DNA from: Sporohalobacter salinus
Lineage (GTDB): Bacteria > Bacillota > Halanaerobiia > Halobacteroidales > Acetohalobiaceae
Assembly: GCF_016908635.1 (NCBI RefSeq)
Contig: NZ_JAFBEG010000012.1
Location: forward strand, 1 to 64,000
Direction of reading: 5' to 3'
DNA: 64,000 bases
Each line of letters begins with the position of its first letter. Within the stretch, counting starts at the first letter, position 1. The notes beneath the pieces are model-generated. The model worked only from the letters and a program-made list of their open reading frames with translations. It was not told where the DNA came from and did not search any database. Of this stretch, positions 40,604-60,267 are shown piece by piece. A program made the translations under genes and the position numbers.

Positions 40604-40624
40604 ACTAACTCACTTCCTATTATG

Positions 40625-40638: not shown

Positions 40639-40756
40639 CTAATATAATAGTAGCATATTTTATTTTTTATGTCAATAAATCATTAGTTATGATTGTATCA
40701 TATTTTTATAGATAGAACTTAATATAATCTTGACCATCATGTAGAATATTTCACAT

Positions 40757-41654: not shown

Positions 41655-41670
41655 GATCGTGTCTCTGGTT

Positions 41671-42717: not shown

Positions 42718-42739
42718 AAATATATTCACCTCTCCATAA

Positions 42740-42832
42740 ACATATTCATTTAATGCTTTTATGACAATGTTTATTATACCACAAACCTATTCACTTTACC
42801 ATAAAAGTATTCATTTAAACTATTAATGAATA
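42740..42832. promoter_or_regulatory. Repeated TATTCATTTA-type motifs upstream of the Fic gene
   Basis: TATTCATTTA occurs at about 42743 and 42806, TATTCACTTTA lies between them, and an inverted TAATGAATA follows near 42822. The spacing is about 30 bases. They overlap the expected promoter and may be operators for the winged-helix tail of the Fic protein; this is inference. Confidence 0.4.
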
Positions 42833-42874
42833 CGTTTAAGAAAATATAAACATGTTTATAAAGGCATGTCGGCT

Positions 42875-43496
42875 GTAGGGTCGAAGTCTAGTGCCTTAAC
42901 TTAGGTTGATATTTGTTTTCGCCGTTTGTTCACCCTTTCGTCTGTGAGTGCCACAATATCTCATCCTTATCAGGTTCCCAGTCCCCGCCTCATCAAACCG
43001 TACGTACGGTTCTCCCGTATACGGCTTTCCTATTAATTTCTTCTTAACCTCTATAAGCATAATCCTTCTTAGATTTAAGATATATTCTCTTCCTCAAGTC
43101 TTGTAGACTTATGTAGGTCTTAGTTATAGAATTTTCTTTGCTCAAGTGATTTCTCACAGGAAGAAGTAAGGTCTCTCCAGTTCCAGACATATCCGTGTAT
43201 ACATACCACCGCTAATACTCCGTTGGTGTGTATAAATGTATCAGTCAATTTTCATTTATACATTCTGTCTTCACTCAGACGTTAAAAGTTCGACCACCAA
43301 ATTTACCCCTTTCGAAGCTACTGTGCGTTCACTGATGTTATGGTCTGCATACTTGCTCGATATCCTATAGATATCTTTGTCAATGGACTTCAATGTTTAA
43401 AGTTTCCTATCAACATTGCCATTCAGCTATAGAGTCTTAACTTTTACTCTAATAGAACTTACACCTATTGGATATGTCCAGCTTCGCTGGACATGC
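42875..43496 (-). mobile_element. Group II intron, copy b, maturase gene deleted
   Basis: This 622-base copy has the intron 5' region and domain V (near 42998-43031), with the same 3' tail ending GACCCTAC, but has lost the maturase gene and part of the domains before it. It splits attC6 after GTT. It is nearly identical to copies a and c in shared parts, which indicates recent spread. Confidence 0.85.
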
Positions 43497-43625
43497 AACG
43501 TCCCGCAGCTTCGCGACGTCCTCGCTATTCCTCTGTAACCTAATTTAATACAACCTAAGTTTCATAAGTCAGCTCCAGCTCTCATTCATGCACTGTAACT
43601 GGATGTCGCTAAGCTGCTGTTATAT
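43497..43625 (-). repeat. attC6-like recombination site, interrupted by intron copy b
   Basis: R'' is ATATAAC on the minus strand, the arms AGCTTAGCGACATCC and GGACGTCGCGAAGCT pair, and R' is GTT, then the intron, then AGCC. R'' with flank (GTCATATAAC) is complementary to the start of its own cassette (GTTATATGAC at 44585). It ends the small membrane protein cassette. Confidence 0.82.
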
Positions 43626-43969
43626 GACGGATGGCACGCTTTAAGCTCAAATTTATAAATACAAATTATTGATATGTAAAGGAACATGATTAAAATAAAT
43701 TTACTTGTAGCAACTACTTTATCACCAATTATAGCTAATCAAATTCTAAATTTACCATTATTAATATTATTTTAAAATAATTATATAATCTATCTTCAAG
43801 CTTTAATATTCATCATGCCTTGTTATCTTCCATATTTCTTCTAACAAACAAATCTTAAATTAACTAATGACTTAATATCATTATTATTCGCTTAAACAAT
43901 TTTAAAATTTTCTATACATTCATCTATAACATCCCTTCAACCATTTTGTATTTTATCATATAACCTCAA
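43626..43969. other. Non-coding 3' part of a cassette
   Basis: These 344 bases lie between the membrane protein stop and attC6. No gene with adequate signals was seen; a 29-codon hydrophobic frame on the plus strand at 43686-43775 has only a poorly spaced AAAGGA. Confidence 0.4.
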
Positions 43970-44521
43970 TCAACCTGCTTTGAAAAAAAGACTAGCAATT
44001 ATAATTCCTAATATAATATATAAAAGACCATACCACGAAAAATTTTTATTAGAAGAATTAAATTTATATTTCATATCAGCCTTTAAGTCATTATATAATT
44101 TAGTTCTTATAAGTTTTCTTAAATCTATTGTTATTGTATCTAAGATTGACTTATATTTTATTTTATATTTTTCATTCAAAGTAAAATACTTCTCATTTAA
44201 AACATACTCGTTATGATAATTATAATTTATATTTTTTTCTTCCAATATCTTTTTAAAGGACTCTACAAATTCTTTTTCCTTGACACCAAATAAAACAAAT
44301 TTCCCAAATGAAAAAAAGATAGAAAAAATCAACAATCCTAATATCGTAAAACTAAACAAATAAGGTGCTTCAGTAAAATCTTTTAACAAATTACCAGATA
44401 AAAATATAACAAAAATAACACTTTTATTAACTTTTGAAAACATAATTTTTCTACCAATTAACATATTTATACCTCTCCAAATAACAATTAAACCTATTAT
44501 TAAGTAAAATAAACTAATCAT
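43970..44521 (-). CDS. Cassette-borne membrane protein of unknown function
   Basis: The 183 residues contain four membrane helices (about 3-20, 30-45, 50-70 and 160-180) around a soluble, lysine/tyrosine-rich middle with NEKYFTLNEKYKIKYKSIL. The ATG at 44521 has GGAGG 7 bases upstream; the longer frame to 44551 would include the ribosome site. It is the only gene of its cassette. No family recognised. Confidence 0.68.
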   Translation of the reverse strand: MISLFYLIIGLIVIWRGINMLIGRKIMFSKVNKSVIFVIFLSGNLLKDFTEAPYLFSFTILGLLIFSIFFSFGKFVLFGVKEKEFVESFKKILEEKNINYNYHNEYVLNEKYFTLNEKYKIKYKSILDTITIDLRKLIRTKLYNDLKADMKYKFNSSNKNFSWYGLLYIILGIIIASLFFKAG

Positions 44522-44578
44522 ACAAATTCCTCCATCCAGTAATTCTTTCAAATAACATCAGCATTTGTGCCATCTGTC

Positions 44579-44715
44579 ATATAACGTCTTAGAAATATTT
44601 CCGATGTCTCAACAAAAAAAATTAAAGTTTTTATTTAATACACTCTTCCTTTTATAAGTTAGCTGAATTTTTATTTGATTAGCTATTAAGATGTCGGAAA
44701 ATATTCTTGTTGTAC
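44579..44715 (-). repeat. attC5-like recombination site
   Basis: R'' is GTACAAC, L'' AGAATATTTTCCGACATCTT pairs with AGACATCGGAAATATTTCT, and R' is GTTATAT. The arm sequence differs from the other sites while the fold is kept. R'' is complementary to the odd core GTTGTAC at the start of its own cassette (46178), which supports a true cassette end. It closes the transposase cassette. Confidence 0.8.
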
Positions 44716-44943: not shown

Positions 44944-46113
44944 CTAACTACCTGCAGTTTTCCTCTTTAATTTAGCTTTCACTATTGGAGTTTCTTCTGA
45001 GTCAAATTTTCTTCCTTTAATCAACTCTTTGCCACATACCGGACAGTTTTGTAGATCTTCTCCTCCTTTTTCTTTACAGTACTCCTGCCACTTTATCTCT
45101 TCTGGCTCTTTAACTTTAGCTTGTCCAAGTTCCTTACGACATTTATTTAATGTCTCTCGCTTACAACTAGCATACAATCCGTAATAACGTACTACTTTTA
45201 AATTAGGTTTGGGGACATGAAGTAGAAATCTACGTATAAATTCTTCTGTATCTAATGTCATTACTTTTTTCTTTCCATTCTCTTTGTTATCTTTATAATT
45301 AAATTTAATTTCATTCTCATTATAGTTTATTACCCGATGATTAGATATTGACCCACCTTTAATGTAGTTACCTAAATATTTGATGACGCCCTCACCATAA
45401 GCATACTTTTCGCAAACATATACATTCCACTTTTTTATTCTCAATTTTCTTAACATCTTATGTATCTGACTATAGCTCATTCCTTCTGGTTTCTTTATCT
45501 CACCGTTATAAACTAAGTTATGTAATCTATCTAAGAATTTACCTCTAAAGATTTCTTGTAATACTGTAACTGGTATTAAATAGCCTTTCTTACTTGGTTT
45601 CCACTCTTCGTTATCTGTCATTCCTCCGCCAGTAACTAAACAATGAAGATGAGGATGTAAATTTAACGTTTCTCCCCATGTCTGTAAAGTAGCTATCACT
45701 ACTGGATTAGCTCCCAGAAATTTATCATTTTCTAACATCCCAAACAGAGAATCTTTAGCAGACTTAAATAATAGGCCAGTCATCTTTCTAGAGTTTAACA
45801 TCCACAATTCACTTAATTTATGAGGAAGTGTAAATATTACATGATAATGGTCAGCATCTAAAACTCTTTCCAGCTGCTTATTTATCCATTCTTGCTTTTG
45901 AATACCTGAACATTGCGGACATGATCTGTGCTTACATGAGTTATACCAGATACGGTGATAATGCTCATCAGGACACTTTTGAACATGGCCGCCTAAAGCT
46001 GAAGTCCGGCAATTAATTATACTCCACGCTGCTTTTCGAGCATGCTCAGCTATTAAATTATTCTGCTCATATTCTGGATAATGCTCAGTAAAAATATCTT
46101 GAATTACACTCAT
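44944..46113 (-). CDS. IS91-family transposase
   Basis: The 389-residue HUH-type transposase has an N-terminal zinc-binding region with CKHRSCPQCSG near residue 60, the HUH motif in NLHPHLHCLVTGGG near 160 and a tyrosine region in YLGNYIKGGSISNHRV near 250. This is the IS91 pattern of rolling-circle elements. The ATG at 46113 is chosen because AAGAGGAAG precedes it; the frame opens further upstream to 46203, through the attC site. It lies exactly between two attC-like sites, so it now behaves as a cassette. No IS91 target GTTC/GAAC junction was confirmed. Confidence 0.88.
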   Translation of the reverse strand: MSVIQDIFTEHYPEYEQNNLIAEHARKAAWSIINCRTSALGGHVQKCPDEHYHRIWYNSCKHRSCPQCSGIQKQEWINKQLERVLDADHYHVIFTLPHKLSELWMLNSRKMTGLLFKSAKDSLFGMLENDKFLGANPVVIATLQTWGETLNLHPHLHCLVTGGGMTDNEEWKPSKKGYLIPVTVLQEIFRGKFLDRLHNLVYNGEIKKPEGMSYSQIHKMLRKLRIKKWNVYVCEKYAYGEGVIKYLGNYIKGGSISNHRVINYNENEIKFNYKDNKENGKKKVMTLDTEEFIRRFLLHVPKPNLKVVRYYGLYASCKRETLNKCRKELGQAKVKEPEEIKWQEYCKEKGGEDLQNCPVCGKELIKGRKFDSEETPIVKAKLKRKTAGS

Positions 46114-46171
46114 ATTTGCACTTCCTCTTAAAAGATTATCATACCCAACTTTTGCTACGCGAAGCGTTTCT

Positions 46172-46304
46172 GTACAACGTCCCGCAGCTTCGCGACGTCC
46201 CACTCATGTTTCATGACCTAATTTAATGCAACCTAAATTTCATAAGTCATCCCCAACTGTCATTTTATGCACTACAACTGGATGTCGCTAAGCCTCTGTT
46301 AGGT
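46172..46304 (-). repeat. attC4-like recombination site
   Basis: R'' is ACCTAAC, the arms AGGCTTAGCGACATCC and GGACGTCGCGAAGCT pair, and R' is GTTGTAC. R'' plus flank (TTCACCTAAC) matches the start of its own cassette, GTT(intron)AGGTGAA at 47155. It closes the DUF5673-like cassette. Confidence 0.83.
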
Positions 46305-46338
46305 GAAGTCAGAATGAACATATTACTTTCATAAAAAA

Positions 46339-46887
46339 CTATCCCTCAATGTTTTCTTCAAATATTTTTTTTAATTCTTCTTCATTCTTTTCTGAAACTT
46401 TAATTGAATATATTTTTTCTGAATTTAACAAATTAATCTTTAACATCTTTTTATTGTTATTAGATTGTACTTGAAAATCATAAGATTTAATTTGTTCCCA
46501 ATTTATAAAATTAGAAAAAGTGATTATTCCATTTTTATTTATTATTAATTTTTGATGTTTTGCTAAACCTATAAATACTCCTGCTGAAATTGCAATTACA
46601 GCATAATCCTCCAAAAACATAGTCACTTTAATATTAAAAAACATGAATTGAATTATTTTAACTATACTAGCCCCAAGGCATAAAATAATTAAACTATTAA
46701 CTATTATACTTTCATTAAAGAAAAACAAATTAAATAATCTATTCTTATAATATCTCGTTCCTTGATAATACAAAATGTTTTTTGAATTTGATAACTTCAA
46801 TTGACCTTTTATATGATACATTAAAAAAACACTCAATAATATTGTTGCTGCAACAGATAAAATTCCATAAAAAAATAAATTCCACAT
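46339..46887 (-). CDS. Cassette-borne membrane protein, DUF5673-like
   Basis: The 182 residues have membrane helices near 5-25 and 60-115 and a soluble PH-like end with IITFSNFINWEQIKSYDF. It is a clear paralogue of the protein at 36563-37096 (shared ILYYQGTRY, KIYSIKVS). It is the only gene of its cassette and ends 35 bases before the R'' box. Function unknown; the C-terminal pattern resembles DUF5673. Confidence 0.72.
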   Translation of the reverse strand: MWNLFFYGILSVAATILLSVFLMYHIKGQLKLSNSKNILYYQGTRYYKNRLFNLFFFNESIIVNSLIILCLGASIVKIIQFMFFNIKVTMFLEDYAVIAISAGVFIGLAKHQKLIINKNGIITFSNFINWEQIKSYDFQVQSNNNKKMLKINLLNSEKIYSIKVSEKNEEELKKIFEENIEG

Positions 46888-47155
46888 CTTTTTTCTCCTC
46901 TCTATAATTTATCAATTTATTATCCCCTATCCATCAATTTGTATAAATAATTAGAAATATTAGTCAAAATAATAACAACTAAATACTATTAGAAACATTT
47001 TTACTTTTTATATCATCTCATACGTCAAATTTTATTTGCAATTATAAAAAGATCAAAGAAAAATTATATAATCATTTTAACACTGAAACCTTTTAAGAAT
47101 TTAATTATTTTTTTATCACATTAAAATATAAACTCGCAAAATTCTGATTTCACCT
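46888..47155. other. Cassette leader, no gene seen
   Basis: These 268 AT-rich bases run from the cassette start AGGTGAAATCAG to the membrane protein gene and must hold its promoter. The first 16 bases recur at 35207-35222. Confidence 0.45.
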
Positions 47156-49056
47156 GTAGGGTCGAAGTCTGATGCCTTAACTTAGATTGATGTTTGTTTT
47201 CGCCGTTTGCTCACCCTTTCGTCTGTGAGTGCCACAATATCTCATCCCTATCAGGTTCCCAGTCCCCGCCTCATCAAACCGTACGTACGGTTCTCCCGTA
47301 TACGGCTTTCCTATTAATTTTTTTCTTAAATCTTATAAGTTTAAGCTGGTTTAACTTTCGCTATAGCAAGCTAATTTATAACTATCAAATAAACCTATTT
47401 CATCATATAACTACTCGCTACTCCATCTCTTCCAGCCATATCCCTTTTTACCTCGCTGCTTCATGAGATACCTTCTTACTTTCTTTTCTACATAATCTCT
47501 TATATAAGAAAAGCAATTCTCTGAGTTTCCTATGGAAAAGTAATTTACCCAACCTCTTAATATTGCATTTAATTCTGTTATCATCATCTCAAATATTCCT
47601 GTTGTCCTATGCTTTCGGATTATTTCCTTTATTTTCTGCAATAATGCTGTTCTTTTCTTCATTTGAGGTACTGTCAGAACACCCCATTTTCCACTGAAAG
47701 TCTTTCTTCTTTTCAAAGTAAATCCGAGAAAGCTTATTCTTTCTCCTTTTTCTAGGTTTACTACCTTGGTTTTCTCCTTGTTTACTTTTACCTTTATTTT
47801 ATCTAGTTCTGTATATTTACCTTTACTCTTTGTTACTTCTTTTGCTCTCTCAAGCATTTTATCTACTTCATTTAAATATAGATTAGCAAATAGTGGTGAA
47901 ATTACTCCACCTTGTGGTACACCTTCTTTTCCACTAGCCTTAAGCATCAGCTTAATTAAGTGCATTATTTCTTTATCGACTACTCTTTTAGCAATCTTAG
48001 ATAGCAATATATGGTGCTTTACTGTATCGAAGTAACTCGATAAGTCAAGATCTATCACTTTCCTCTTTCCACTTACTATTGCTTTTTCTATTTTCTTTAC
48101 TGCTTGATGAGCTGTTCGTTTTGGTCGATATCCATAAGAACCTTCTTGAAAATCTGCTTCAAATATTGGCTCTAATATTAACTTTAATGCTCCCTGTACT
48201 ATTCTATCTTTGATGGTTGGTATACCTAATACTCTTACTTTTCCATTTCCTTTAGGTATCTCTTGTTTTCGGTTTTCCTGTGGCTTGTATGTCTTATTTA
48301 CTAGTTCTTCTCTTATCTTTTGAAGATATTTTAATATTCCTATCTCTTCAATATCTTCAGAAGTTATTCCATCTATTCCTGAAGAACCTTTCTTCTTTCT
48401 TGCAATTGTATAAGCTTTTAGTAACGTATCTAACTTACATATATGAACATACCCCCCCAAAATTTATGGGATTCTTCCTTCTTAGATTTAAGATATATTC
48501 TCTTCCTCAAGTCTTGTAAACTTATGGACGCTTTTATCATTTCGCCCTTACCTCCTATCTTGTCCGAGAAATCATCAATAGTAGGGCTCCTTTGCTATAT
48601 GAAGTTATACTCTCTTCATAATCTTCGCTAATACGAACCCATCCGTCACCCTCTTCTTTTCCAATTCATTTCCTAGGTCTTAGTTATAGAATTTTCTTTG
48701 CTCAAGTGATTTCTCACAGAAAGAAGTAAGGTTTCTCCAGTTCCAGACATATCCGTGTATACATACCACCGCTAATACTCCGTTGGTGTGTATAAATGTA
48801 TCAGTCAATTTTCATTTATACATTCTGTCTTCACTCAGACGTTAAAAGTTCGACCACCAAATTTACCCCTTTCGAAGCTACTGTGCGTTCACTGATGTTA
48901 TGGTCTGCATACTTGCTCGATATCCTATAGATATCTTTGTCAATGGACTTCAATGTTCAAAGTTTCCTATCAACATTGCCATTCAGCTATAGAGTTTTAA
49001 CTTTTACTCTAATAGGACTTACACCCATTGGATATGTCCAGCTTCGCTGGACATGC
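47156..49056 (-). mobile_element. Group II intron, copy a, with degenerate maturase gene
   Basis: This 1,901-base copy is inserted after GTT of attC3. It starts GCATGTCCAGCGAAGC on the minus strand and ends CGACCCTAC. Domain V (AGCCGTATACGGGAGAACCG, continuing into ACGTACGG) lies near 47278-47312, with about 120 bases of 3' sequence behind it. The 5' exon is the attC hairpin followed by GTT. The maturase gene inside is a pseudogene, so this copy also needs help in trans. Intron class is not determined; insertion into attC resembles published group IIC-attC introns. Confidence 0.88.
47344..48540 (-). pseudogene. ltrA: Group II intron reverse transcriptase/maturase, inactivated
   Basis: The gene starts at ATG 48540 after GGAGG (MIKASISLQDLRKRIYL). 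A run of seven G near 48455 shifts the frame in the middle of HKFWG/GYVHICK. An open part at 47411-48460 has RT motifs (KVRVLGIPTIKDRIVQGALK, FEADFQEGSYGYRPKRTAHQ, VPQGGVISPL), but about 35 residues with the catalytic YADD box are missing between KGKYT and ELDKIKV. A TAG then cuts off WSSE from LYDEIGLFDSYKLA at the end. Three independent lesions mean no active enzyme. Confidence 0.9.
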
Positions 49057-49188
49057 AACGTCCGTCCCGCAGCTTCGCGACGTCCCATCAATGCTCTATA
49101 GCCTTATTTAATGCAACCTGAGTTTCATAAGTCAGCTTTAGCTCCCATTTTTGCACTGCAACTGGATGTCGCTAAGCTGCTGTTAGGT
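49057..49188 (-). repeat. attC3-like recombination site, interrupted by intron copy a
   Basis: R'' is ACCTAAC, the arms AGCTTAGCGACATCC and GGACGTCGCGAAGCT pair, and R' is GTT, then the intron, then AGGT. A 4-base GGAC duplication lies next to R'. R'' with flank (GTCACCTAAC) matches the start of its own cassette (GTTAGGTGAC at 52726). It ends the two-gene membrane system cassette, whose second gene stops 10 bases before R''. Confidence 0.84.
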
Positions 49189-49197: not shown

Positions 49198-50112
49198 TCA
49201 AAATTGCATTAAATAATCCACAACTTCAGTTAATTTCATTTCTCCTTTTATTAAATCTTTTTTTGTTTTTAATATATCAGAAGATGTAGGTAATCCTGAC
49301 ACACTAATTTCACAATCTAAATTAAGATTTTCAATTAATTCATTTAAACTATCTATAATATATTCTCTTAATATTGTTTGATACCAACTAAATCTTACTT
49401 CCCTTAAAACAACATAAAATTCCGTCTTATATTCTGAAGACCAATCTCTTTTATTCCAACCTATTTTTTTAAATAATTTCTCTACATATATTTTGAATTC
49501 TTCTTTATATTTATTAATATTAAAATATGATCCTTTTTTATATAAATTATCTTTCAAGAACTGTGGATTTAATTCTTTAAATTTTTTTAATTTTTTTAAA
49601 TATTTTTTGTACTCTTTAACCCCACCAAATTGAGAAGGCATACTAATGTACCATACTATATCTGAAGGTAAAATATTTAAAAACTTACCCCACTTATCAT
49701 AATCAGATATCGGTATTGCTTGGATATAATATTTAGGAATTTGAAAAAGTCTTCTAGTAGTAAAATTATGCAAATAATAATTTATTTTATCTTCTTTTCT
49801 ATATGACATAATTTCATATGCAGCTTCTCCATTCCAAGCTAACTTCTGAGCAATTTGCTGTACTACATCACATATAAGTTGGGAATTATTATGTTCAGTA
49901 TGACGATTAAATGAATTTAACATTATTTTAACTTTTTCTTCGTTGGAACCAATTATTTTTGCCGAAAAAGAATCAATTGAATTAGCCTGTATAGGTATTA
50001 CACCCCCATATAAATCTTCAACAAACATATTTAAATTTAAATTAGAACGTCGTTCATGAGAAGGATTAGAAAAATGAGCAATGGATTTGGGAGCAAAATC
50101 AATATTTTTCAT
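49198..50112 (-). CDS. Unrecognised cassette protein, partner of the large membrane protein
   Basis: The 304-residue soluble protein has no recognised family. Visible parts are an N-terminal segment with HERRSNLNLNMFVEDLYGGV, a helical region with VVQQIAQKLAWNGEAAYEIM near 85, a lysine-rich middle (about 165-215) and VRFSWYQTILREYIIDSLNELIENL near 245 (outline only). It starts 3 bases after the 854-residue gene and shares its cassette, so the two proteins likely work together. The AAYEI region faintly recalls phage portal proteins, but this is not enough to name it. Confidence 0.7.
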   Translation of the reverse strand: MKNIDFAPKSIAHFSNPSHERRSNLNLNMFVEDLYGGVIPIQANSIDSFSAKIIGSNEEKVKIMLNSFNRHTEHNNSQLICDVVQQIAQKLAWNGEAAYEIMSYRKEDKINYYLHNFTTRRLFQIPKYYIQAIPISDYDKWGKFLNILPSDIVWYISMPSQFGGVKEYKKYLKKLKKFKELNPQFLKDNLYKKGSYFNINKYKEEFKIYVEKLFKKIGWNKRDWSSEYKTEFYVVLREVRFSWYQTILREYIIDSLNELIENLNLDCEISVSGLPTSSDILKTKKDLIKGEMKLTEVVDYLMQF

Positions 50113-50115
50113 TTT

Positions 50116-52680
50116 TTATTCCTCTCCTTTAGAAGACATATATTCTTGATAGGACTCTTTCTCTTTATTTACCTTTTCTTCTAAATCATCTTTTTTCCAT
50201 CCAAAATCAATATCGCTAACTGGGTCACGTTTTGATAAGTACATCCCTACAAAAATATCTATCCCATTATACAAACTTCCCAGCCCCCCATCACAAAAAA
50301 TACGCACTAAGGGACTTTCATGAAGTACTATTTTTTCACCCGGAATACCCCCTCTGTATTCTTCCGGAATGCTAGAAAAAAGCTTTTCTATCTTCTGATT
50401 CCATTCAGTACGTACTAATTCTCTATTGGAAAGTTCAAGACTATTTTCTGATAATTGCACAACACTTGAAAATATTTTTTCTTTAGAAAATGAACTTTCA
50501 CCTGAAGTTTCTAAATATTCTTCCCAAACTTTTTTTATTTCTTTCCATAACTGATCCTTTTCATGAAATTCAGATAAAATTAAACCATAACCAGAAATAT
50601 CCATAAGATCTAACAAAGGAGCTACTGCAACTTTGAGTTTGTTTGTTGTTCTCCAACCCCCATCACCTAATTCTTCAGGCTTCAAAGAATCAAATTTATT
50701 TATACTTCCATAGAAAAAAGGTTTAAACAATTTTTCTATGGGTTCTATTTCTCCTTCAATTAAAGCATTAATAATTGATTCAGCTGTAGCATGCAAAAAT
50801 TGGCCAACATAATCAGGAAAATCATTTGAACGAGTTGGTGAAGATAATAAAACTATATGCTCTGCCATTTTACTAATAACAAATAATCTTTTATCTTCAA
50901 TAAATTCTTTTAAGTCTTCTTCCTCCAACTCTCTCCAAGACAAATCAATCCGACATTTTTTTTGTAAATTATTTAATGTGTTTTTAAATATATCAAAGAA
51001 ACGTAACAACTTATACAAATATTCTCTTTCCCGACTTAAAATGGCCGCTGTTAACCAAGGACGATTTTCCATATCAATCCTATCAAGCCAATATTCATAC
51101 TGACCAATAATATCCTTTACTAAGATATTAATATTGTTTACTATTTCTTCAGCTTTTATATTAGCTATAACTTCCGTTTGATACCATAAGGGGGTCATTA
51201 ATGAGTCTTCAATGTTAATTTCATAATTTATTTTGTCTTTAAGTTCTTCTAACTTAGGTAAAACACTTGAAGAAAAGTCATGATAATATAAATCTTTATT
51301 CGATTTCCACTTTAGTTTAGAAAGGTTTTTAGAAATTTCTTTTTTATTTGTTTTGTTAATAAGTTCTTTGTACACTAAAAATAATTCTATAGAAATTGAT
51401 GATAAAAATTCTATTAAAGTAATACTTTCTAAATCCTCATTTTTTAAAATAAATTCATCCTTTGAATTAATAATTTTATCTAATATAATCTCAGAAAGTT
51501 TATTTAAATAATTTAAGGCTTGTCTAAGTTCGCCATGATTAGATAGATTTTTTAAATAATTTTTAAATAAATTAGTTAACTCTAAAACTATTTCATCTCT
51601 CCCCTGGTTAAGATTAATCTTGATGCATCTAAATACTATAGGAATAATTTCTTTTTCAATCCAAAATTTATCATTTGAGATCTTAGGTTTAGTAAATGTA
51701 GCAGTTTGATTAGCTAAAGATGTAAACGTATCCTCTGTAAGATACCAATCTTTATGTTTATATTTTTGTTCATACCATTTACTTTTAGAAGGAATCTTAG
51801 ATTTTGAGTTTTGATAATAGTTCAAAAACCTAATAATGCTCTTAGATAACTCTGCAAAAGATTTTCCGTTTAAATTATCTTCTTGGCTTACTATATCTGC
51901 CAAGGTCTTTAAAGTATAAATGTTATCCTTAGTTTGTTTATATGCATGATTTTGAAAAGACTCATCTTTCCATTGAAATCCTCCAGCTTTAACCATATTA
52001 GTATATTTTCTAAAGTCTTGAAAAATAGAATAAGATAATTGAGTAGGGTCAAATAAATAAAAAGCTCGTTGACCTAATTTTACAAAAGAAATCAACCCAA
52101 CTCCTGTCATAGGCACAATAATTAAAACTGCTAAATGAATTCGAGGATATCCTAAAATTCGCATTAAAATTATAACCAAACTAAAAAAAGTGAGAAAAGA
52201 CATATAATTCATATAAACAATACCCATTCTTTCTTTAGCTAATAAATCACGAATGTTATTCGGAACCCGTGAGTATATAGAACTCCCAACCATATTAAGA
52301 CTTGCATAATAAAGACCAATTAAAACTCCTCCAATACTAATTATAGCAGTAAATAACATAATATAATTACTACTCTCTAGAAAACTGAAATCTAATCCAT
52401 AATATCTCAAATTGAATTTATTATCTAAATAATTACATAATTTTATAAAGTAGGGGTTTATAATTTGCAATAATATAACCGCAAAAATTGCAGCAAAAAT
52501 TTGTCCAATTGTTGCTTTTAATAATCGATATAATGAATTAACATTTTCTTTTCCATCAATGCTAGCATATCTTATCTTAAAAATATTCTTCTTAATCCAA
52601 AATAATATTTTCTTTATTATTTTTCTTAATTTCCAAAATAATTGCTTCTGTGCTAAAGAAAGAAATAAATTATTCTTCAT
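50116..52680 (-). CDS. Large membrane protein of unknown function, cassette two-gene system
   Basis: The 854 residues have a basic N-terminus, then about five membrane helices between residues 60 and 215, and a soluble C-terminal region of some 640 residues that is mostly helical, with no recognised catalytic motif. It is co-encoded with the 304-residue protein downstream. A membrane sensor or pore with a big cytoplasmic domain plus a small partner, carried as a mobile cassette beside a restriction system, suggests anti-phage defence; this is inference. Confidence 0.72.
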   Translation of the reverse strand: MKNNLFLSLAQKQLFWKLRKIIKKILFWIKKNIFKIRYASIDGKENVNSLYRLLKATIGQIFAAIFAVILLQIINPYFIKLCNYLDNKFNLRYYGLDFSFLESSNYIMLFTAIISIGGVLIGLYYASLNMVGSSIYSRVPNNIRDLLAKERMGIVYMNYMSFLTFFSLVIILMRILGYPRIHLAVLIIVPMTGVGLISFVKLGQRAFYLFDPTQLSYSIFQDFRKYTNMVKAGGFQWKDESFQNHAYKQTKDNIYTLKTLADIVSQEDNLNGKSFAELSKSIIRFLNYYQNSKSKIPSKSKWYEQKYKHKDWYLTEDTFTSLANQTATFTKPKISNDKFWIEKEIIPIVFRCIKINLNQGRDEIVLELTNLFKNYLKNLSNHGELRQALNYLNKLSEIILDKIINSKDEFILKNEDLESITLIEFLSSISIELFLVYKELINKTNKKEISKNLSKLKWKSNKDLYYHDFSSSVLPKLEELKDKINYEINIEDSLMTPLWYQTEVIANIKAEEIVNNINILVKDIIGQYEYWLDRIDMENRPWLTAAILSREREYLYKLLRFFDIFKNTLNNLQKKCRIDLSWRELEEEDLKEFIEDKRLFVISKMAEHIVLLSSPTRSNDFPDYVGQFLHATAESIINALIEGEIEPIEKLFKPFFYGSINKFDSLKPEELGDGGWRTTNKLKVAVAPLLDLMDISGYGLILSEFHEKDQLWKEIKKVWEEYLETSGESSFSKEKIFSSVVQLSENSLELSNRELVRTEWNQKIEKLFSSIPEEYRGGIPGEKIVLHESPLVRIFCDGGLGSLYNGIDIFVGMYLSKRDPVSDIDFGWKKDDLEEKVNKEKESYQEYMSSKGEE

Positions 52681-52719
52681 ATTTTTTAACTCCTAACTCT
52701 TAGTTTTTGAACCAATGTC

Positions 52720-52851
52720 ACCTAACGTCCCTGGGCTTCGCGACGTCCCATCAATGCTCTATAACCTAATCTAATGCAATCTGAATTTCATAAGTCATTC
52801 CCAACCCTCATTTATGCACTATAACTGGATGTCGCTAAGCCCATGTTAGGC
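52720..52851 (-). repeat. attC2-like recombination site
   Basis: R'' is GCCTAAC, L'' GGGCTTAGCGACATCC pairs with L' GGACGTCGCGAAGCCC, and R' is GTTAGGT. The spacers next to R'' and R' differ in length, as in known attC sites. R'' with flank (GTCGCCTAAC) matches the start of its own cassette (GTTAGGCGAC at 57014). It ends the restriction-modification cassette. Confidence 0.86.
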
Positions 52852-52954
52852 GACGTACGTGTTCAAAAAAATTAAATCTCAATTTGTTTTAATAAAAAAA
52901 TCTCCCAATGAATAATAAACCAGCAATTAATTCATGGGAGAATTTTATCATTTA

Positions 52955-54352
52955 TTAAATCTCTCTCTTATTAATATAATTTATTATTTCATTTTCTCGG
53001 TATTTTTCTAATTTCTTAATCTTCTTTTTGCAAATATTAACTAATTTAATAGCCTGATCATACTTTGTAGCAATTTCCAGTTGAATATCTTCACTTGGAA
53101 TAGGAATATCTATTTTATTAAAGATATCTAATGTTATACCACCTTGTGCACCGCCGCTTATATATCTTTTTATTTGTTCCTGTCCAAAATCACTATTTAA
53201 TATTGCAAAAATATATTTAGCATTATATTCTGAGAGAATTGATATTCTATATAGATGCTCATTAGTAGCAGCTAAATCATATTTGAAATTTTCATTCACT
53301 ATAGCAACTTTACCTGTTGTTGCTCCATCTTTACATATTAGTATATCCATTTCATTTATTTTTATATTTGGATTATCTTTATAAAATCTTTTGGTAACAT
53401 ACTTCATATCATTGTAAACTATCTCACCATTTAAATTTATATGCTCTCCTCCTAAACTAGGAACACCTTCTTTTATATATTTAACCCCACCTTTTGGTCG
53501 CTTACCACTAGATATATTCCATACAACTTCTTTTAGTTTTTTGATATCCATTTCACTATTTTTTACTTCATAATCATAGTTTTTTAAATGGAATGAAACA
53601 TCAAATCTTTCTTTTAATTTATCCAATTCAATAGAATTTGTTTTCTTTATCTCTACAATAGACTGTTTTTTAATACTAACTTTCTCATATAAAATATTCT
53701 CAAATATTTTATATATTAACTTTATTCTGTTTTTATACTTTTTTATCTTATTAGTTATTCTTTTGTAAAAATCAATTATTTCTTGTTGAAGCTCTTTTTT
53801 AGGAACAATAACTTTTATATTTTTTATATCTTCTAAATGTAAATCTGGAACACCTATTCCTTTAATAAATTTATCTATTTGAATTTTAGTAAAAAAAGAA
53901 TTTAAATAGATTGCTAAATATTCAGGAATACATTTATCCTTAAAAACATCTTTTAATACTGCAACACTAACATAAATACTAAAATGATCATCTATATCTG
54001 GTACTACTGTAGAAACTCCTATAGTCCCTACCTTAGTAAGTAAAACATCTTCAGGTTTTGGATTAGACCCACTTAACTTCTCATATAAATACTTTGATAC
54101 ATACTTTACATCGCCAAATTCTATCTCCGTTGGCTTTATATCCTTAGAAGAAATAAATGGAACACCTTCTTCATGATAGATAGGAGTTTGATGAGACCCA
54201 TCTCTTACATCATAAACTAATTCACTTAAGGTATATACATTATGGTATTTGGAAGGATTTTTAAATCTTTTTTTTACAATGTCTTCAGCAATTATAGTTT
54301 CTACTGAAAGACGGTTGCATAAATTTTTTGCATTATTTGAAAAACACTTCAT
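52955..54352 (-). CDS. hsdS: Type I-like restriction specificity subunit (HsdS)
   Basis: The 465 residues hold two target recognition domains, about 30-190 (LSELVYDVRDGSHQTP) and 265-430 (LKEVVWNISSGKRPKGG), separated and followed by helical spacers, the standard HsdS plan. It reads DNA sequence for the methylase-nuclease subunit encoded just before it (3 bases between stop and start). It is second in the cassette; the pair resembles BcgI-type systems, which have no separate HsdR. Confidence 0.9.
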   Translation of the reverse strand: MKCFSNNAKNLCNRLSVETIIAEDIVKKRFKNPSKYHNVYTLSELVYDVRDGSHQTPIYHEEGVPFISSKDIKPTEIEFGDVKYVSKYLYEKLSGSNPKPEDVLLTKVGTIGVSTVVPDIDDHFSIYVSVAVLKDVFKDKCIPEYLAIYLNSFFTKIQIDKFIKGIGVPDLHLEDIKNIKVIVPKKELQQEIIDFYKRITNKIKKYKNRIKLIYKIFENILYEKVSIKKQSIVEIKKTNSIELDKLKERFDVSFHLKNYDYEVKNSEMDIKKLKEVVWNISSGKRPKGGVKYIKEGVPSLGGEHINLNGEIVYNDMKYVTKRFYKDNPNIKINEMDILICKDGATTGKVAIVNENFKYDLAATNEHLYRISILSEYNAKYIFAILNSDFGQEQIKRYISGGAQGGITLDIFNKIDIPIPSEDIQLEIATKYDQAIKLVNICKKKIKKLEKYRENEIINYINKREI

Positions 54353-54355
54353 AAT

Positions 54356-56926
54356 TTAAACCCCTTTATAAGTATGTTTACTTTTAATAAATTTATTCCA
54401 TTGTCCTAAAATAGTACCTTCTGCTTCTAAATCAGCTAATTTTGAATTAGATTTTTTCTTAAATAATTCATTTTTAGTCTTTTTTCCAGTAGCATCATAA
54501 CCAATATGCTCAGCTTCAGCCATAAAAACAGGTCTGTTCCATTTTTTCAGAACTTCCTTATGAGCTTCATACTCAACATCCATTTTAGTAATTTCATCTT
54601 TTTCAATTTCTAATTCTCTAATTTCTAATTGATAGTCTTCTAAAATATCATATCCTAGTCGTTTTAAAAAGTTAATTATCGTTTTAGTATAACTATTAAA
54701 TTTCTTCTCAGCAAGTTCTCTTTGAGAATATTTTTTCCTACTACTTCCTCTATTCTTCCAAGTTCTTAATCCTTTCCTAACAAAGCGATTAGAAAAATCA
54801 TTATATAAATTAACTAAACTCTCATACAATACAATAACTTCTTGTTCTAAATCATTATCTAAATAATCTATATCTACTTTTTTACCTATTTTATCATATA
54901 AACTAATAATCTTATTTTTAATTTCACTCAAATCTTCAAATTCATCATCTATACTCTTGTTAACTACTTTCTCTTTTTCTCCTCCAATCCCTAATATTTC
55001 TCCTTCTTCTTCTAATATTTCAATTTCTCCTATTTCTTGATATAAATCTTCAATTTTATCAAATATATTTTGTAAAAATGACTCTAATCCATTATTATCA
55101 ATAAATATCTGTAATTCTTCTGTTAAATTATCTATTAAACTTATTTTTTCTTTTTCCTTATTCAATATATAACGTTCTTTATCTTTTTTCCAACGATTAA
55201 ATTCATCATTTGTAAATTTCTTTATTATTAATATAGAAGTCTTTGAACCAGATCCTGTTTTCTTAAAAGCAAAATCAGGCAGAGAAATAATACCTAAAAT
55301 GTGGGCTCTTTCTTGAATATATTTTCTTACATACCAAAATGAAGAATTGTTTAATATTCCATCAGGTACTATAATAGCCATATGTCCTGGCTGAGAATTA
55401 TCTTTTCCATCATGTTTAGGTTTTAAAAGATCAATATTTCGTTCTAAAAATAAAACATCAGAAGCTTGTTTAGTTTTATCCATTCCTCCACCTAAATCAA
55501 AATCTTTCACATAAGGCTGATCTGTTTCATCATCATCTGCTTTACTACCAAAAGGAGGATTAGATAAAACAATGTCAAATGTACCTTTTTTTATTCCTTC
55601 CACATCATAAGATTCAAAATCTTGTAAACCATCTCCTATCTCAATATTAGTATGACCATCATCAAATATAATCATATCCATCATTGCAACACGAGCAATT
55701 TTTTCGTTTTTTTCTATCCCAAATACTTTGTCATTAAAATTTCTTTCTCTTCTATATCTATGATTTTGATTACTAACATTTAATCTTAACTTTTCTCTTA
55801 CATAAATCAAACTATGTAATAAAAAACCTGCTGAACCACAACTTGGATCTATAATTTTTAAATTTTCAACATTATTATCATCATATAATGACATAATTAA
55901 ATTTACAATAAATACAACCAGATTTCTATCAGTAAAATATTGTCCAAGCTTTTGCTTGAATACCGTGTCTAAAAATTGTTCAAATGCCCTTCCCTTAGCA
56001 TCTGGATCAGTATCAACTAAATTTATATGTTGCATCAAAAGAACAATCTTATATATTTTACTATCATCAGCTTTTAAATCTTCCGTAAAAACACTAGGTT
56101 TCTCATTCTTTATTTTTTTATATTTATTTCTTATTCGCTTAGCTACTTTCTTTCTATTATTAATTTCATGATTCCCTATTTGAAAATCATATGCTTCTTT
56201 ATCATTAGTTCCTAATTCATCTTGAGTCTTTATAAAAATTATCTTACTCATCTCATCAAAAGCCTCTGCTGGATCTTTTGCACCATGATCCCATAAAATT
56301 TGATGACATTTTCTAAAAAGTTTTAACAATTTACTTTGAGTTATCGTTTGTAATTCTCTTTCAGAAGTTGCTTTAATATATTTATATCTTTTAGGCTTCC
56401 CATATTCTTCTGGTAAATCAGTAACAATATTTTTCTTTCTCTCTTTTGCTCCCCACTTTTCTTTTTTCTCATCATCTTTATATAAAGAAAACACTTTTCG
56501 CTTTTCAGTTTGATTATTATCAACAATATAATATTCAGCTGCTAAGTTTAATGCATATACATATTGGTCATTTTTAGCTTTTCTCATTTCTTTTTTAGGA
56601 GCATTTTCTTCTTTAGTCTCAATAACAGCATATACATTATCAGAATTTTTATGTCTTATAACTATATCAGCTCTTTCTTTAGTAACTTTTGGTACAGTCT
56701 CTTCTATTGTAATATCTGATGGATCATATTTATATTGATATAATAATTCAGAATAAACTAAAGCCCTTACATGTTCTTCAGGATTACTAGGACCATAATT
56801 TTGCTCATTCCTTCCTTTAGCATTTACATATTTAATTTTTCCACCATTAATAATAATCTCTCTATTGTCTCTAGCTTTTTGAAAATACTCATTTCTTTTA
56901 TCAACTCTTGATTTCATATAAATCAC
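54356..56926 (-). CDS. Restriction-modification protein: nuclease-like N-terminus fused to N6-adenine methyltransferase
   Basis: Residues about 30-150 resemble the HsdR N-terminal nuclease domain: ERADIVIRH and YAVIETKEEN give the D...ExK pattern. Residues about 300-600 are an HsdM-type methyltransferase with motif I IDPSCGSAGFLL and motif IV LSNPPFGSKAD. A long coiled-coil C-terminus follows. A cut-and-methylate subunit with a separate HsdS is the BcgI (type IIB) or type IIG arrangement. There is no HsdR ATPase gene nearby. It would protect against phage or plasmid DNA. It is first in cassette 2. Confidence 0.85.
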   Translation of the reverse strand: MIYMKSRVDKRNEYFQKARDNREIIINGGKIKYVNAKGRNEQNYGPSNPEEHVRALVYSELLYQYKYDPSDITIEETVPKVTKERADIVIRHKNSDNVYAVIETKEENAPKKEMRKAKNDQYVYALNLAAEYYIVDNNQTEKRKVFSLYKDDEKKEKWGAKERKKNIVTDLPEEYGKPKRYKYIKATSERELQTITQSKLLKLFRKCHQILWDHGAKDPAEAFDEMSKIIFIKTQDELGTNDKEAYDFQIGNHEINNRKKVAKRIRNKYKKIKNEKPSVFTEDLKADDSKIYKIVLLMQHINLVDTDPDAKGRAFEQFLDTVFKQKLGQYFTDRNLVVFIVNLIMSLYDDNNVENLKIIDPSCGSAGFLLHSLIYVREKLRLNVSNQNHRYRRERNFNDKVFGIEKNEKIARVAMMDMIIFDDGHTNIEIGDGLQDFESYDVEGIKKGTFDIVLSNPPFGSKADDDETDQPYVKDFDLGGGMDKTKQASDVLFLERNIDLLKPKHDGKDNSQPGHMAIIVPDGILNNSSFWYVRKYIQERAHILGIISLPDFAFKKTGSGSKTSILIIKKFTNDEFNRWKKDKERYILNKEKEKISLIDNLTEELQIFIDNNGLESFLQNIFDKIEDLYQEIGEIEILEEEGEILGIGGEKEKVVNKSIDDEFEDLSEIKNKIISLYDKIGKKVDIDYLDNDLEQEVIVLYESLVNLYNDFSNRFVRKGLRTWKNRGSSRKKYSQRELAEKKFNSYTKTIINFLKRLGYDILEDYQLEIRELEIEKDEITKMDVEYEAHKEVLKKWNRPVFMAEAEHIGYDATGKKTKNELFKKKSNSKLADLEAEGTILGQWNKFIKSKHTYKGV

Positions 56927-57007
56927 TCCTTACTTTTAAGATTATATTATACATTGTCTTATTTAGTCAAATATATAACTATCAATTTAAAACAAAATTA
57001 GTATGTC

Positions 57008-57138
57008 GCCTAACGTCCCTAGGGTTCGCGACGTCTAGTTCAACCCTACTATAACTTGTCCATATTCTAAAGATTACATATCTAATCTTTAATTTCACCT
57101 ATCCTCCTAGTCTAGATGTCGCTAACCCTATGTTAGGT
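57008..57138 (-). repeat. attC1-like recombination site
   Basis: R'' is ACCTAAC, L'' AGGGTTAGCGACATCTAG pairs with L' CTAGACGTCGCGAACCCT, and R' is GTTAGGC. The pairing keeps only an A/C mismatch and one A/G difference, and the spacers are 2 and 6 bases. R'' with flank (TTCACCTAAC) matches the start of its own cassette at the candidate attI (GTTAGGTGAA at 59033). It closes the first cassette. Confidence 0.87.
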
Positions 57139-57154
57139 GAAGTATGAATGGACA

Positions 57155-58984
57155 TTATGAAAGTTTAATTTCGGAAAATGCAGCTTTATTATCTATTCTT
57201 TTTAACTCATATTTTATGTTATCAGAACTCAAATTTTCCATTCTACTATTTAACTGATTCTCTGCTACATTAGCTCCATTACACATGTTTTTAGCTTCAA
57301 TAACAATTAGAAAAGCTCCATCTTTTTTATTAGGTAAAATTATAATACCATCAAATTCTGCTAAAGGAGTGCTTGAGGTTTTCTTCCAGACTTCTGTAGA
57401 ACCCCCAAATACAATCATGTATCCTTGATAATCTAAATCTAATAACAATTCATTTACCATTCTTATTTCATTCAATTCATCATCAGATAAAAATCCATCT
57501 GCTTTTTCAATATACTTCTGAACCTTTTCAGCAATCTTTTTAGAACCTCTATCACTAAAATACGGTTTCAAAATTGTATTTTGCAATTTCACTGTAGATA
57601 ATTTGAAATTCAAATCCCAGCCAAATACCGTTTTTAAAGCATAATTAATAACACTCTTCTTATTTTCATAAAAATTATCATTTGGATAATTAGTTTTATT
57701 TAAATTGTAATCTAATTTTATTGTTTCAGAAATAAAATTCATACAACTATTTAGTTTGTTTTCATATTTTCTATTATTTTTCAATGCAAAAGCAATTTTG
57801 AAAATATTCCCTTTTGGGTTTTTAAATCCTGAAACTATACAAGTTCGCCTACCACATTTTTCTCTGATTTTCTCCTCCCAAGATATTAAATCTTCTGGAA
57901 ACAAATCTTTATAATTATTAACATTTGAATAAACTAAATCTAAACAATTATTAGAATCCCAATTAACTTCAGGAAAAGTATGCTCTTTATAATTATTAAA
58001 TATATTAACTAATTTATTAGAATCTTTACTCTTAGGTTCTAAAAGCTTTCTTATAACTGAAACATTTTTAAATGTATGTTCATCCTCATATTTATTAAAC
58101 TTTTTCTTTAACTCAATAGCTTTATTAGTAGAAGTTATCATAGAATTACCAGATAAATATAATGAATCCTGTAGTAATATATTTATTTGTTCAATAGTGC
58201 TTTTTAATGTCTTAGCATTATTCGATAATCCACTAAATATTTGTTTTAAATTAACAACAACAGATGATAATTCTAACTTAAAAGGGAGTGGAGCATAAGT
58301 AGAATCTAATAATAGATATGATAACTTTCTAATAACTGAATATATATCCCAATATCTTTTTAAATTACTTTCCTTTTTATTTATATAATCAAGTAAAAGC
58401 TTTATTGATAATTTCAAAAGTCCTTCCTTATCTTTATAATTTGTATATCTATTTAAAAGAAATATAGCATTTATCAAATGAATATTATATATATCAAAAT
58501 CTTCTATCATTTCATCTAGTATGTCTTTTGTCTCTTGATTATTTAGTCCATTTTTTAATCCAGATCTAACTTTAGCTTTATTTTGCTTTAATAAATCTAT
58601 CCAAACCTTTGATGCAGCAAAAGTATCAGGAAAATGCCCCATATTAGCTAAGATAGAAAGACATTGAAATAATTCTCCAACTGTAGGTTTTTCACCAATA
58701 TATTCTACTTCTCCAAAATCATCTTTTTTACTTCCTAATCCAAGTCCTTCTACAGTACTCTTTAATTCATGTATGAGGTGCCATTGTAATATTATGTACT
58801 CATATCTAGTATAATGAGCACCATGAAGGCTATCTGTCAGTGCCCCTAGCTGATTAGTATAATGAAATTTTGCATCAAAATTTAAAGTAGCTAAAAAATT
58901 ATAAAGTTCATTAGCATATGGATAGACATATGTTGATATTAAACCATGTCCATTTAAATTATAACTGATTCTGTTTGCATTCAT
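57155..58984 (-). CDS. Putative defence protein with HD-like region and C-terminal PD-(D/E)xK nuclease motif
   Basis: The 609 residues are not a recognised family. Residues about 45-135 look like a degenerate HD domain: DSLHGAHYTRYEYI and ILANMGHFPDTFAAS mirror the RxH and HDxGH regions, but the HD pair itself is replaced. The middle is helical. Residues about 545-590 contain EFDGIIILPNKK and FLIVIEAKNM, the D...ExK arrangement of PD-(D/E)xK nucleases. As the first cassette it is probably the most recent arrival or the best expressed. A nucleic acid-cleaving defence effector is a reasonable guess. Confidence 0.7.
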   Translation of the reverse strand: MNANRISYNLNGHGLISTYVYPYANELYNFLATLNFDAKFHYTNQLGALTDSLHGAHYTRYEYIILQWHLIHELKSTVEGLGLGSKKDDFGEVEYIGEKPTVGELFQCLSILANMGHFPDTFAASKVWIDLLKQNKAKVRSGLKNGLNNQETKDILDEMIEDFDIYNIHLINAIFLLNRYTNYKDKEGLLKLSIKLLLDYINKKESNLKRYWDIYSVIRKLSYLLLDSTYAPLPFKLELSSVVVNLKQIFSGLSNNAKTLKSTIEQINILLQDSLYLSGNSMITSTNKAIELKKKFNKYEDEHTFKNVSVIRKLLEPKSKDSNKLVNIFNNYKEHTFPEVNWDSNNCLDLVYSNVNNYKDLFPEDLISWEEKIREKCGRRTCIVSGFKNPKGNIFKIAFALKNNRKYENKLNSCMNFISETIKLDYNLNKTNYPNDNFYENKKSVINYALKTVFGWDLNFKLSTVKLQNTILKPYFSDRGSKKIAEKVQKYIEKADGFLSDDELNEIRMVNELLLDLDYQGYMIVFGGSTEVWKKTSSTPLAEFDGIIILPNKKDGAFLIVIEAKNMCNGANVAENQLNSRMENLSSDNIKYELKRIDNKAAFSEIKLS

Positions 58985-59026
58985 ATTTAACCCCTCACTA
59001 TTTAGAATTTAACTAATTCATATTTC

Positions 59027-59154
59027 ACCTAACTTGATTCTTCATGACACTATATTCATATGTAGTGTCGCAAATACTCTATATTTAGATATATTACGAA
59101 ATAGTGTCGCAAACACTCACTATATCTTAGTATTTATGTCTGTCGTAAATACTC
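59027..59154 (-). other. Candidate attI recombination site
   Basis: Between the recombinase stop and the first cassette lie three direct repeats of about 17 bases, at 59063-59079, 59102-59118 and 59138-59154 (plus strand TAGTGTCGCAAATACTC and variants), spaced 36-39 bases. A core GTTAGGT follows on the minus strand at 59033-59027, exactly where the first cassette begins. GACACTA/TAGTGTC also form an inverted repeat around 59046-59069. Integron attI sites likewise pair direct recombinase-binding repeats with a core. Binding is inferred. Confidence 0.6.
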
Positions 59155-59178
59155 ATTATCTATAAAATATTCCTCTTA

Positions 59179-60267
59179 CTAATCTAAATAATCCAGTGGG
59201 CTTTTAATATCCTCAATATTTTTCTTACTGACGTGTGTATATCTTTCAGTAGTTTTAAGATTCTTATGTCCCAATAATTTTTGAATATACCGCAAATCAG
59301 TCCCCTTTTCTAGTAAATGAGTAGCAAAAGAATGTCTTAATGAATGAATTCCTACTTCTTTTTTAATCCCAGCCTTTCTACAAGCTTTTTTAAACACTCT
59401 CTGTACAGAACGCTCTGTTAAATAAGTTCCTTCCTTACCACCTGGAAAAAGCCATCCTTCCTCTATACGGTATTTTTTAGAATATCTTCTAAGTTCCTTA
59501 AGAGCAACTTCAGACAATAGAGTATAACGATCTTTCTTACCTTTTCCCTGCTTTACCCGTATTAACATCCTTTCACTATCAATATCTTCTACTTTTAAAG
59601 AAACTACTTCACTAACCCGTAACCCTGCCGAATAAACTAAATTTAAAATAGCACGATGTTTATAATTTTTTAAAACACTTAATATCTCAGCTACCTCTTC
59701 TTCACTTAATACATTAGGAAGTTTTCTTCCCTTCTTAGGACGTGGAATATTAACAGTTACTCTTTCTTTCTCTAATACTTCATTATAAAGAAATTTAATT
59801 GCACTTAAAGCCTGATTAGTATAACCAGAAGATCGTTCTTGCTTCTCCAAAAGTAATAATAAATATTCTCGTACATCATTCTCTTTTAATTCTTTTGGTT
59901 TTTTCGCATGGTATTCTACATATCTTCTAATATGTCCTAGATAAACATCACAAGTCTTAGAACTATAATTTTGTAATTTAATCTCATCTTTCACTTCTTG
60001 CAAAAAACTTCTCATCCATAATTTTTCAAGTTGCTTCTCTGTTTGATTAACTTCAATATTAAGACTTGAATCTATCACTATTTCTTCATTAGCAAAAATA
60101 TCTAAAAGTTTATTAACTGCATCCTTAGTATAAGGAATAGTCCAAAACTTCTCTTCAGGATGCCACTGGCGACCATAAATTAGCTTAATCTTCTCTACCC
60201 GTTCAGGTGTATAATCAAACTCAACAATTATTTCTTTCTCTTCACCTTTTTTAATCTCAATCCCCAT
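59179..60267 (-). CDS. Tyrosine recombinase, candidate integron integrase lacking the IntI insertion
   Basis: The 362-residue recombinase starts with a roughly 80-residue domain including GRQWHPEEKFWTIPYT. A core-binding domain (about 90-175, with NQALSAIKFLYNEVL) and a catalytic domain follow, with the arginine in AGLRVSEV, lysine in KGKKDR, HSLRHSF, LGHKNLKTTERY and the nucleophilic tyrosine in RYTHV, ending in SPLD as IntI proteins do. The 16-20 residue insertion before the HxxR motif that marks IntI is absent. The ATG at 60267 has AGAGGG upstream; the frame is open to 60378 without a ribosome site. Confidence 0.9.
   Translation of the reverse strand: MGIEIKKGEEKEIIVEFDYTPERVEKIKLIYGRQWHPEEKFWTIPYTKDAVNKLLDIFANEEIVIDSSLNIEVNQTEKQLEKLWMRSFLQEVKDEIKLQNYSSKTCDVYLGHIRRYVEYHAKKPKELKENDVREYLLLLLEKQERSSGYTNQALSAIKFLYNEVLEKERVTVNIPRPKKGRKLPNVLSEEEVAEILSVLKNYKHRAILNLVYSAGLRVSEVVSLKVEDIDSERMLIRVKQGKGKKDRYTLLSEVALKELRRYSKKYRIEEGWLFPGGKEGTYLTERSVQRVFKKACRKAGIKKEVGIHSLRHSFATHLLEKGTDLRYIQKLLGHKNLKTTERYTHVSKKNIEDIKSPLDYLD

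Follow-up and report, generated by a model that had tools for sequence, protein, structure and literature searches.

A tyrosine recombinase lacking the IntI-specific insertion heads a probable integron-type cassette platform in Sporohalobacter salinus

INTRODUCTION

In integrons, the attC site of a cassette is complete only while the cassette is circular, so that an arrayed cassette has to pair its first bases with its own attC 5' end and not with the site that it abuts. An integron integrase is defined operationally by the IntI domain, which surveys use as a filter; a system of cassettes devoid of this domain would be recorded as absent or as a CALIN, the term for clustered attC sites with no integrase. 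IntegronFinder 2.0 found integrons to be extremely rare in Firmicutes and listed just one complete case for Bacteroidetes proper (PMC9024848). Here, we describe a tyrosine recombinase gene and the gene array downstream of it in a 64,000-nucleotide stretch of the Sporohalobacter salinus genome (Bacillota; assembly GCF_016908635.1, contig NZ_JAFBEG010000012.1, positions 1 to 64,000), hereafter the window. The initial annotation of this locus had proposed that the recombinase lacks the IntI-specific insertion, carries an added N-terminal domain and may represent a separate lineage that uses attC-like sites. On sequence grounds, this recombinase very probably acts as the integrase of a platform that collects cassettes in the manner of an integron but without IntI.

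RESULTS

The recombinase gene and the first elements behind it are as follows.

59179..60267, minus strand: tyrosine recombinase, 362 aa, with a HARP-like N-terminal domain (aa ~1-68), a SAM-like core-binding domain (88-168) and a catalytic domain (186-349); no IntI insertion
59020..59178, minus strand: attI-like module, with boxes of recombinase type (a palindrome at 59129-59153, TAGTGTCGCAAA at 59063-59074 and 59102-59113) and then the insertion core GTTAGGTGAAATATG with its GTT at 59033
57009..59033, minus strand: cassette 1, open reading frame (ORF) 58984..57155, 609 aa, no Pfam match
57008..57138, minus strand: attC1, covariance model 118 bits, E 4.6e-24 (site in the training set)

The module of about 160 bp located 3' of the recombinase gene contains repeated GTGTTTGCGACACTA-type boxes and ends in GTTAGGTGAAATATG, a core that pairs with the 5' end of attC1 at 14 of 15 positions; equivalent modules are also found downstream of homologues. 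Past this module, genes on the recombinase strand are separated by elements of 127-132 nt of the form NNNNAAC-AGCAG-CTTAGCGACATCC ... GGGACGTCGCGAAGCTG-CGGGAC-GTTNNNN, which reproduce the R''-L''...L'-R' layout of attC, with spacers unequal on the two sides. Seven such attC-like sites lie between 57138 and 38698, downstream of the recombinase and on the same strand, with a remnant at 28024. With the strict canonical pattern RYYYAAC/GTTRRRY, no more than two intact sites were retrieved in the window, and few in other places, since GTTATGT also occurs as a core and introns or an insertion sequence (IS) split several of the sites; the remaining sites were recovered by a relaxed scan and then by the L'' box.

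The own-end rule was examined in the window array and in those of L041 and L045 (the latter from Halanaerobacter jeridensis), 21 cassettes in all, by scoring 15 bases beyond the GTT. Own pairs reached 12.0 matches of 15, whereas other pairs had 6.7 and the adjoining site 6.75. The own-end matches summed to 253, versus 192 for the best of 100,000 shuffles (0 of 100,000 as high), and the own attC was the best or tied partner for 18 of the 21 cassettes. Cassette 1 follows the rule in all three arrays (14, 14 and 12 of 15), and since its start lies within the module behind the recombinase, this module is identified as attI, with the crossover at GTT. Of the features of an integron platform, an array of cassettes bounded by folded-stem attC sites is thus present, and so is an attI beside the integrase gene with insertion at GTT, the latter in the window, in L041 and L045, and in the 44 loci described below.

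Analysis of 17 intact attC sites, taken from the window and from three related genomes, defined a stem of 19 pairs, in which 97% of the cells were paired and double changes occurred at 7 of the 19 pairs. The stem covariation score was 0.32; shuffling lowered it to 0.11, and slid controls did not exceed 0.05. This alignment indicates that the attC stem is under selection, with compensatory changes. As single-stranded DNA, attC1 folds into a hairpin, with z values of -3.6 and -6.2 on the two strands. Two candidate marks were rejected. A strand bias in fold energy had been expected, after two sites, from an A.C mismatch that is a G.T wobble on the other strand, and failed on the 17 sites. Palindromes of at least 9 bp, considered as a specific mark of the region 3' of the gene, occurred in 32 of 82 downstream regions and in 2 of 61 at 1 kb, but also in 25 of 81 upstream regions, and they were therefore used as description only.

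The association of recombinase and cassettes extends to many genomes. In a model-free test, each GTT within 250 nt after a recombinase stop was taken, and its 14-mer was searched for a reverse-complement partner ending in AAC downstream; the controls paired one locus with another (n=975). With up to 2 mismatches, such a partner was found in 45 of the 98 loci whose recombinase has an N-terminal extension (set by HARP-domain length, so that some of the 98 may bear another N-terminal domain), compared with 52 of the 975 controls (5%; p 1.5e-25). Homologues without the extension gave 3 of 32, and none at one mismatch or fewer. An A/G mismatch at base 11 of GTTNNNNNNNA recurs in 44 of the 45 positive loci, which span Bacteroidota, Bacillota, Spirochaetota and other groups, and include Flavobacterium, Algoriphagus, Aquimarina, Paenibacillus, Spirochaetota and a viral contig. 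Comparison of 44 such loci showed first cassettes that are unrelated to one another (homology in 1 of 903 pairs, versus 903 of 903 for the recombinases), and 41 of 43 ORFs lie on the recombinase strand. On the viral contig, L138 (IMGVR_UViG_3300000568_000548), the cassette signature is complete beside an N-domain recombinase, and the first cassette is 1538 bp long.

Among 121 relatives, 34 have recombinase homologues (E <= 1e-40; this count takes in some fragments and some members without the N-terminal domain), and homologues also occur in many other phyla. A covariance model located attC-like sites in 28 of the 121, in long same-strand runs; in G012, at least 12 attC sites, all on one strand, occupy the 31 kb directly downstream of the recombinase. 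Both elements co-occur in 23 genomes, attC alone is found in 5, the recombinase alone in 11 and neither in 82 (p = 5e-12, inflated by shared ancestry). Hence, one of the two refuting outcomes named in the initial annotation, homologues that never neighbor attC-like sites, did not occur. A CALIN-like run lies at G007:C2:440327-479163, where one strand carries at least 17 attC-like sites and no recombinase is nearby on the contig; the recombinase of that genome is on another contig.

The recombinase ORF is intact, from the ATG at 60267 to a stop ending at 59179, and an alternative GTG start is open at 60378. Its core-binding domain and its Phage_integrase domain (PF00589, E 5e-44) are recognized by Pfam, and the catalytic set of tyrosine recombinases (R217, K242, H308, R311, H334 and Y343) is invariant across 17 homologues. 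The motifs quoted in the initial annotation (GRQWHPEEKFWTIP, NQALSAIKFLYNEVL, VGIHSLRHSF and SPLD) are all present in the protein as quoted. IntI4 is the closest solved structure by sequence and by fold, and the top PDB sequence match (2a3v, E 1.3e-44) consists of two aligned segments that break exactly at the IntI-specific insertion (recombinase 266->282, IntI4 187->241). From the first catalytic arginine to the histidine of HxxR, 30 homologues have 89-94 residues (median 90) versus 131-132 in 10 IntI proteins, so that about 41 residues are absent from the recombinase family, which confirms the lack of the insertion noted in the initial annotation. The same short spacing is seen in 7 relatives without the N-terminal domain.

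The claim of an added N-terminal domain also held: the domain is conserved, and HARP (PF07443) is recognized in 12 of 24 members of the family (best E 1.8e-5), with no match at E 0.1 for the window's own domain. AlphaFold predicts a b-b-a-b-b-a-b arrangement (mean pLDDT 84), for which the best Foldseek match is the XPB N-terminal domain (E 0.055), the SMARCAL1 HARP domain appearing lower in the list. These profile and fold matches are suggestive, but not conclusive, of a HARP/XPB likeness. HARP/XPB-type domains are known from proteins that act on branched DNA, a role that would suit recognition of folded attC.

A maximum-likelihood tree of 66 sequences, including only five Xer and ten IntI proteins, places the window recombinase outside a monophyletic IntI (100/100). 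The recombinase family and other insertion-less recombinases, some of which adjoin IS91-type transposase sequence, form a clade beside IntI (99/96), within which the N-domain family is not resolved as a single clade. With TIGR02249, the IntI model, the recombinase scores 237 bits, under the curated cutoff of 265. Exclusion from the IntI clade and this subthreshold score mean that it is not an IntI by the criteria of the field (PMC9668308, PMC2426708). This position in the tree, along with the co-occurring attC-like sites, supports the proposal of a separate recombinase lineage.

The remainder of the array was annotated as follows.

52721..57011, minus strand: cassette 2, type I restriction-modification (RM) genes hsdM (56926..54356, HSDR_N_2 domain) and hsdS (54352..52955); own-end pairing 11/15
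52720..52851, minus strand: attC2, covariance model 127 bits, E 4.8e-26 (site in the training set)
49198..52723, minus strand: cassette 3, ORFs of 854 aa (52680..50116) and 304 aa (50112..49198); own-end pairing 14/15
49057..49188, minus strand: attC3, E 5.9e-19; group II intron (Rfam RF02003, reverse transcriptase ORF 48460..47411) after the GTT of R'
46305..47156, minus strand: cassette 4, DUF5673 protein (46887..46339), beginning past the intron 3' end; own-end pairing 14/15
46176..46304, minus strand: attC4, E 9.6e-20; R' split by an IS91-family element (ORF 46203..44944, Y2_Tnp E 2.7e-61)
43626..44590, minus strand: cassette 5, start GTTATATGACAGATGGCAC at ~44590, downstream of the IS91 element; ORF 44551..43970, 193 aa; own-end pairing 14/15
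43497..43625, minus strand: attC5, E 1.1e-22; split by an ORF-less group II intron (RF02003)
41655..42876, minus strand: cassette 6, Fic-like protein by sequence (42729..41671); own-end pairing weak, 7/15
41526..41654, minus strand: attC6, E 5.4e-15; split by an ORF-less group II intron (RF02003)
38825..40758, minus strand: cassette 7, MarR-like regulator (40603..40181) and hydrolase (39998..38925), both by sequence; own-end pairing 12/15
38698..38824, minus strand: attC7, R'' decayed to ATAAT, E 3.9e-21; split by a group II intron fragment (RF02003)
27916..28024, minus strand: attC remnant from a motif search, possibly the far end of the array

Cassette 2, at more than 4 kb and with two genes, is long for a cassette. 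RF02003 introns (49056-47156, 43497-42876, 41526-40758 and 38698-38494) split four attC sites right after the GTT of R', each time at an identical position and in the cassette orientation; only one of the introns encodes a reverse transcriptase. A fifth site, attC4, is split by the IS91-family element (transposase 46203-44944), the insertion of which starts exactly at the crossover, with the predicted N-terminus of the transposase encoded by attC sequence. The array region also contains a duplicated and diverged (73-77%) DUF5673 gene (36563-37108 and 46347-46896) and a duplicated intergenic segment of about 220 bp (88-92%; 34213-34431 and 37204-37423).

DISCUSSION

Our data point to a recombinase that would bind both the boxes of a double-stranded attI that closely follows its own gene and the folded attC stem of cassettes, joining the two at the GTT core. 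Cassettes would thereby enter in one orientation beside the integrase gene, from which they could be excised again. The recombinase would be the catalyst of these steps and folded, single-stranded attC its substrate, with the HARP-like domain possibly conferring the structure recognition that the insertion provides in IntI. That this domain substitutes for the missing IntI helix, as initially suggested, would fit a HARP/XPB-type fold; the one line of support here for a role in folded-attC recognition is the difference in cassette signature between loci with and without the extension.

A different history, in which a canonical IntI, since lost or acting in trans, built the array beside a recombinase that is a bystander or serves excision only, is improbable. 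CALINs that have no IntI nearby are frequent (PMC9668308), and three metagenome-assembled genomes (L237, L238 and L239; one Ignavibacteria, two Nitrospirae) carry both an IntI above cutoff and a HARP-type member of the N-domain family, meaning that the two systems can coexist. However, no IntI above the family cutoff was found in 61 relatives, the window's own genome included, though arrays abound there. In 44 loci from several phyla, the insertion point lies just 3' of an N-domain recombinase gene; the invariant mismatch recurs across the N-domain family, and the attC arms TTAGCGACATC and GTTAGGTGACAT are similar to the attI boxes, TTAACGACAT.

It is very unlikely that the protein is a host Xer-type recombinase for chromosome dimer resolution, or an invertase varying the adjacent type I RM specificity gene. 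The NCBIfam model recomb_XerA_Arch, whose name covers Xer and integron integrases alike, is indeed passed (236 versus 220 bits), and cassette 2 holds hsdM and hsdS. Yet the scores with the XerC (200 versus 335 bits) and XerD (203 versus 330 bits) models fall far short of their cutoffs, and the tree sets Xer apart from the family (100/98), so that the phylogeny called for by the initial annotation places the family beside IntI and not among XerC/D. Moreover, further tyrosine recombinases (~31% identity) are encoded in the genome, a search of the ORFs showed no other hsdS half, and the RM genes form one cassette among unrelated ones. Least credible of all is that the repeats are transposon terminal inverted repeats or folded intergenic repeats rather than recombination sites: the sites are imperfect palindromes, and IS91 and group II introns lie within the array, but transposon ends would be alike across elements, whereas these ends differ between cassettes and match within each, and the R''-L''...L'-R' stem is conserved between neighboring cassettes.

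Several observations weigh against an integron-type platform run by this recombinase. Recombination by this protein, whether between attI and attC or between attC sites, is deduced from sequence. Canonical attC sites have a reported bottom-strand bias, whereas the fold energies of the single-stranded sites here show no consistent strand preference, the bottom strand being more stable in 8 of 17. The pairing was not seen in 53 of the 98 extension-bearing loci in the model-free test, perhaps because the contig ends there, because the platform is empty or decayed, or because the extension is unrelated. The co-occurrence p value is uncorrected for phylogeny, and the window array, with several attC sites split by introns or IS, may be partly frozen. 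Lastly, Smyshlyaev et al. 2021 describe the IntI-specific insertion, which this recombinase lacks, as essential for integron function (PMC8138268).

The same paper calls the insertion "not fully conserved" in an "integron-like" subgroup of simple tyrosine recombinases (PMC8138268), so that such proteins may have been seen already, and the N-domain lineage may belong among the insertion-less members of this subgroup. In the passages on the subgroup, these members are not tied to attC arrays or attI, and an N-terminal domain is not mentioned (PMC8138268). The literature that we searched, with preprints and most subscription papers outside its scope, gave no account of cassette arrays with an insertion-less recombinase.

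With clearly less assurance than for the locus itself, we lean toward a second integrase lineage, sister to IntI and bearing a HARP-like domain in place of the insertion, that runs widespread integrons across Bacteroidota, Bacillota, Spirochaetota and others. Because the recombinase lacks the part by which integron enzymes are recognized, a cassette-collecting system present in several bacterial phyla, and likened to the integrons that spread antibiotic resistance, appears to have been overlooked. If there is such a second lineage, the reported near-absence of integrons from Firmicutes and Bacteroidetes would be largely a detection artifact, and recognition of folded attC would have been solved in more than one way. 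Hidden integrons would add a new store of mobile genes and would show, as a natural experiment, which protein features are needed to recombine folded attC; an attI beside the recombinase, own-end pairing and the fixed A/G mismatch together offer a simple genome-scale test for them.

Among known systems, the insertion-less recombinases L079 and L120, encoded directly 5' of IS91-type transposase-like sequence, share the tree clade of the N-domain family and not that of IntI; they have no HARP-like domain, and relatives lacking this domain are overall without a clear cassette signature. The N-terminal domain shows weak profile and fold similarity to HARP of SMARCAL1 and to the N-terminal domain of the XPB helicase, but in this family the predicted domain is fused to a recombinase. 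As in IntI integrons (class 1-5 and chromosomal), same-direction and mostly single-gene cassettes are arrayed downstream of a tyrosine recombinase, attC sites have R''/L''/L'/R' boxes, unequal central spacers and a GTT crossover core, and attI adjoins the integrase gene. Unlike IntI, the N-domain family lacks the insertion, possesses an extra N-terminal domain and falls in a separate clade. Further contrasts, drawn from general knowledge of the canonical sites, are the palindromic attI boxes of many N-domain members, cassette ends that pair over 12-19 nt with an invariant A/G mismatch instead of over a 7-nt core, and a core that can be GTTATGT instead of GTTRRRY. Tools that require the IntI domain would label these arrays CALIN, if their attC sites were detected at all; unlike in a CALIN, the recombinase is present at the head of the array, merely invisible to the IntI profile.
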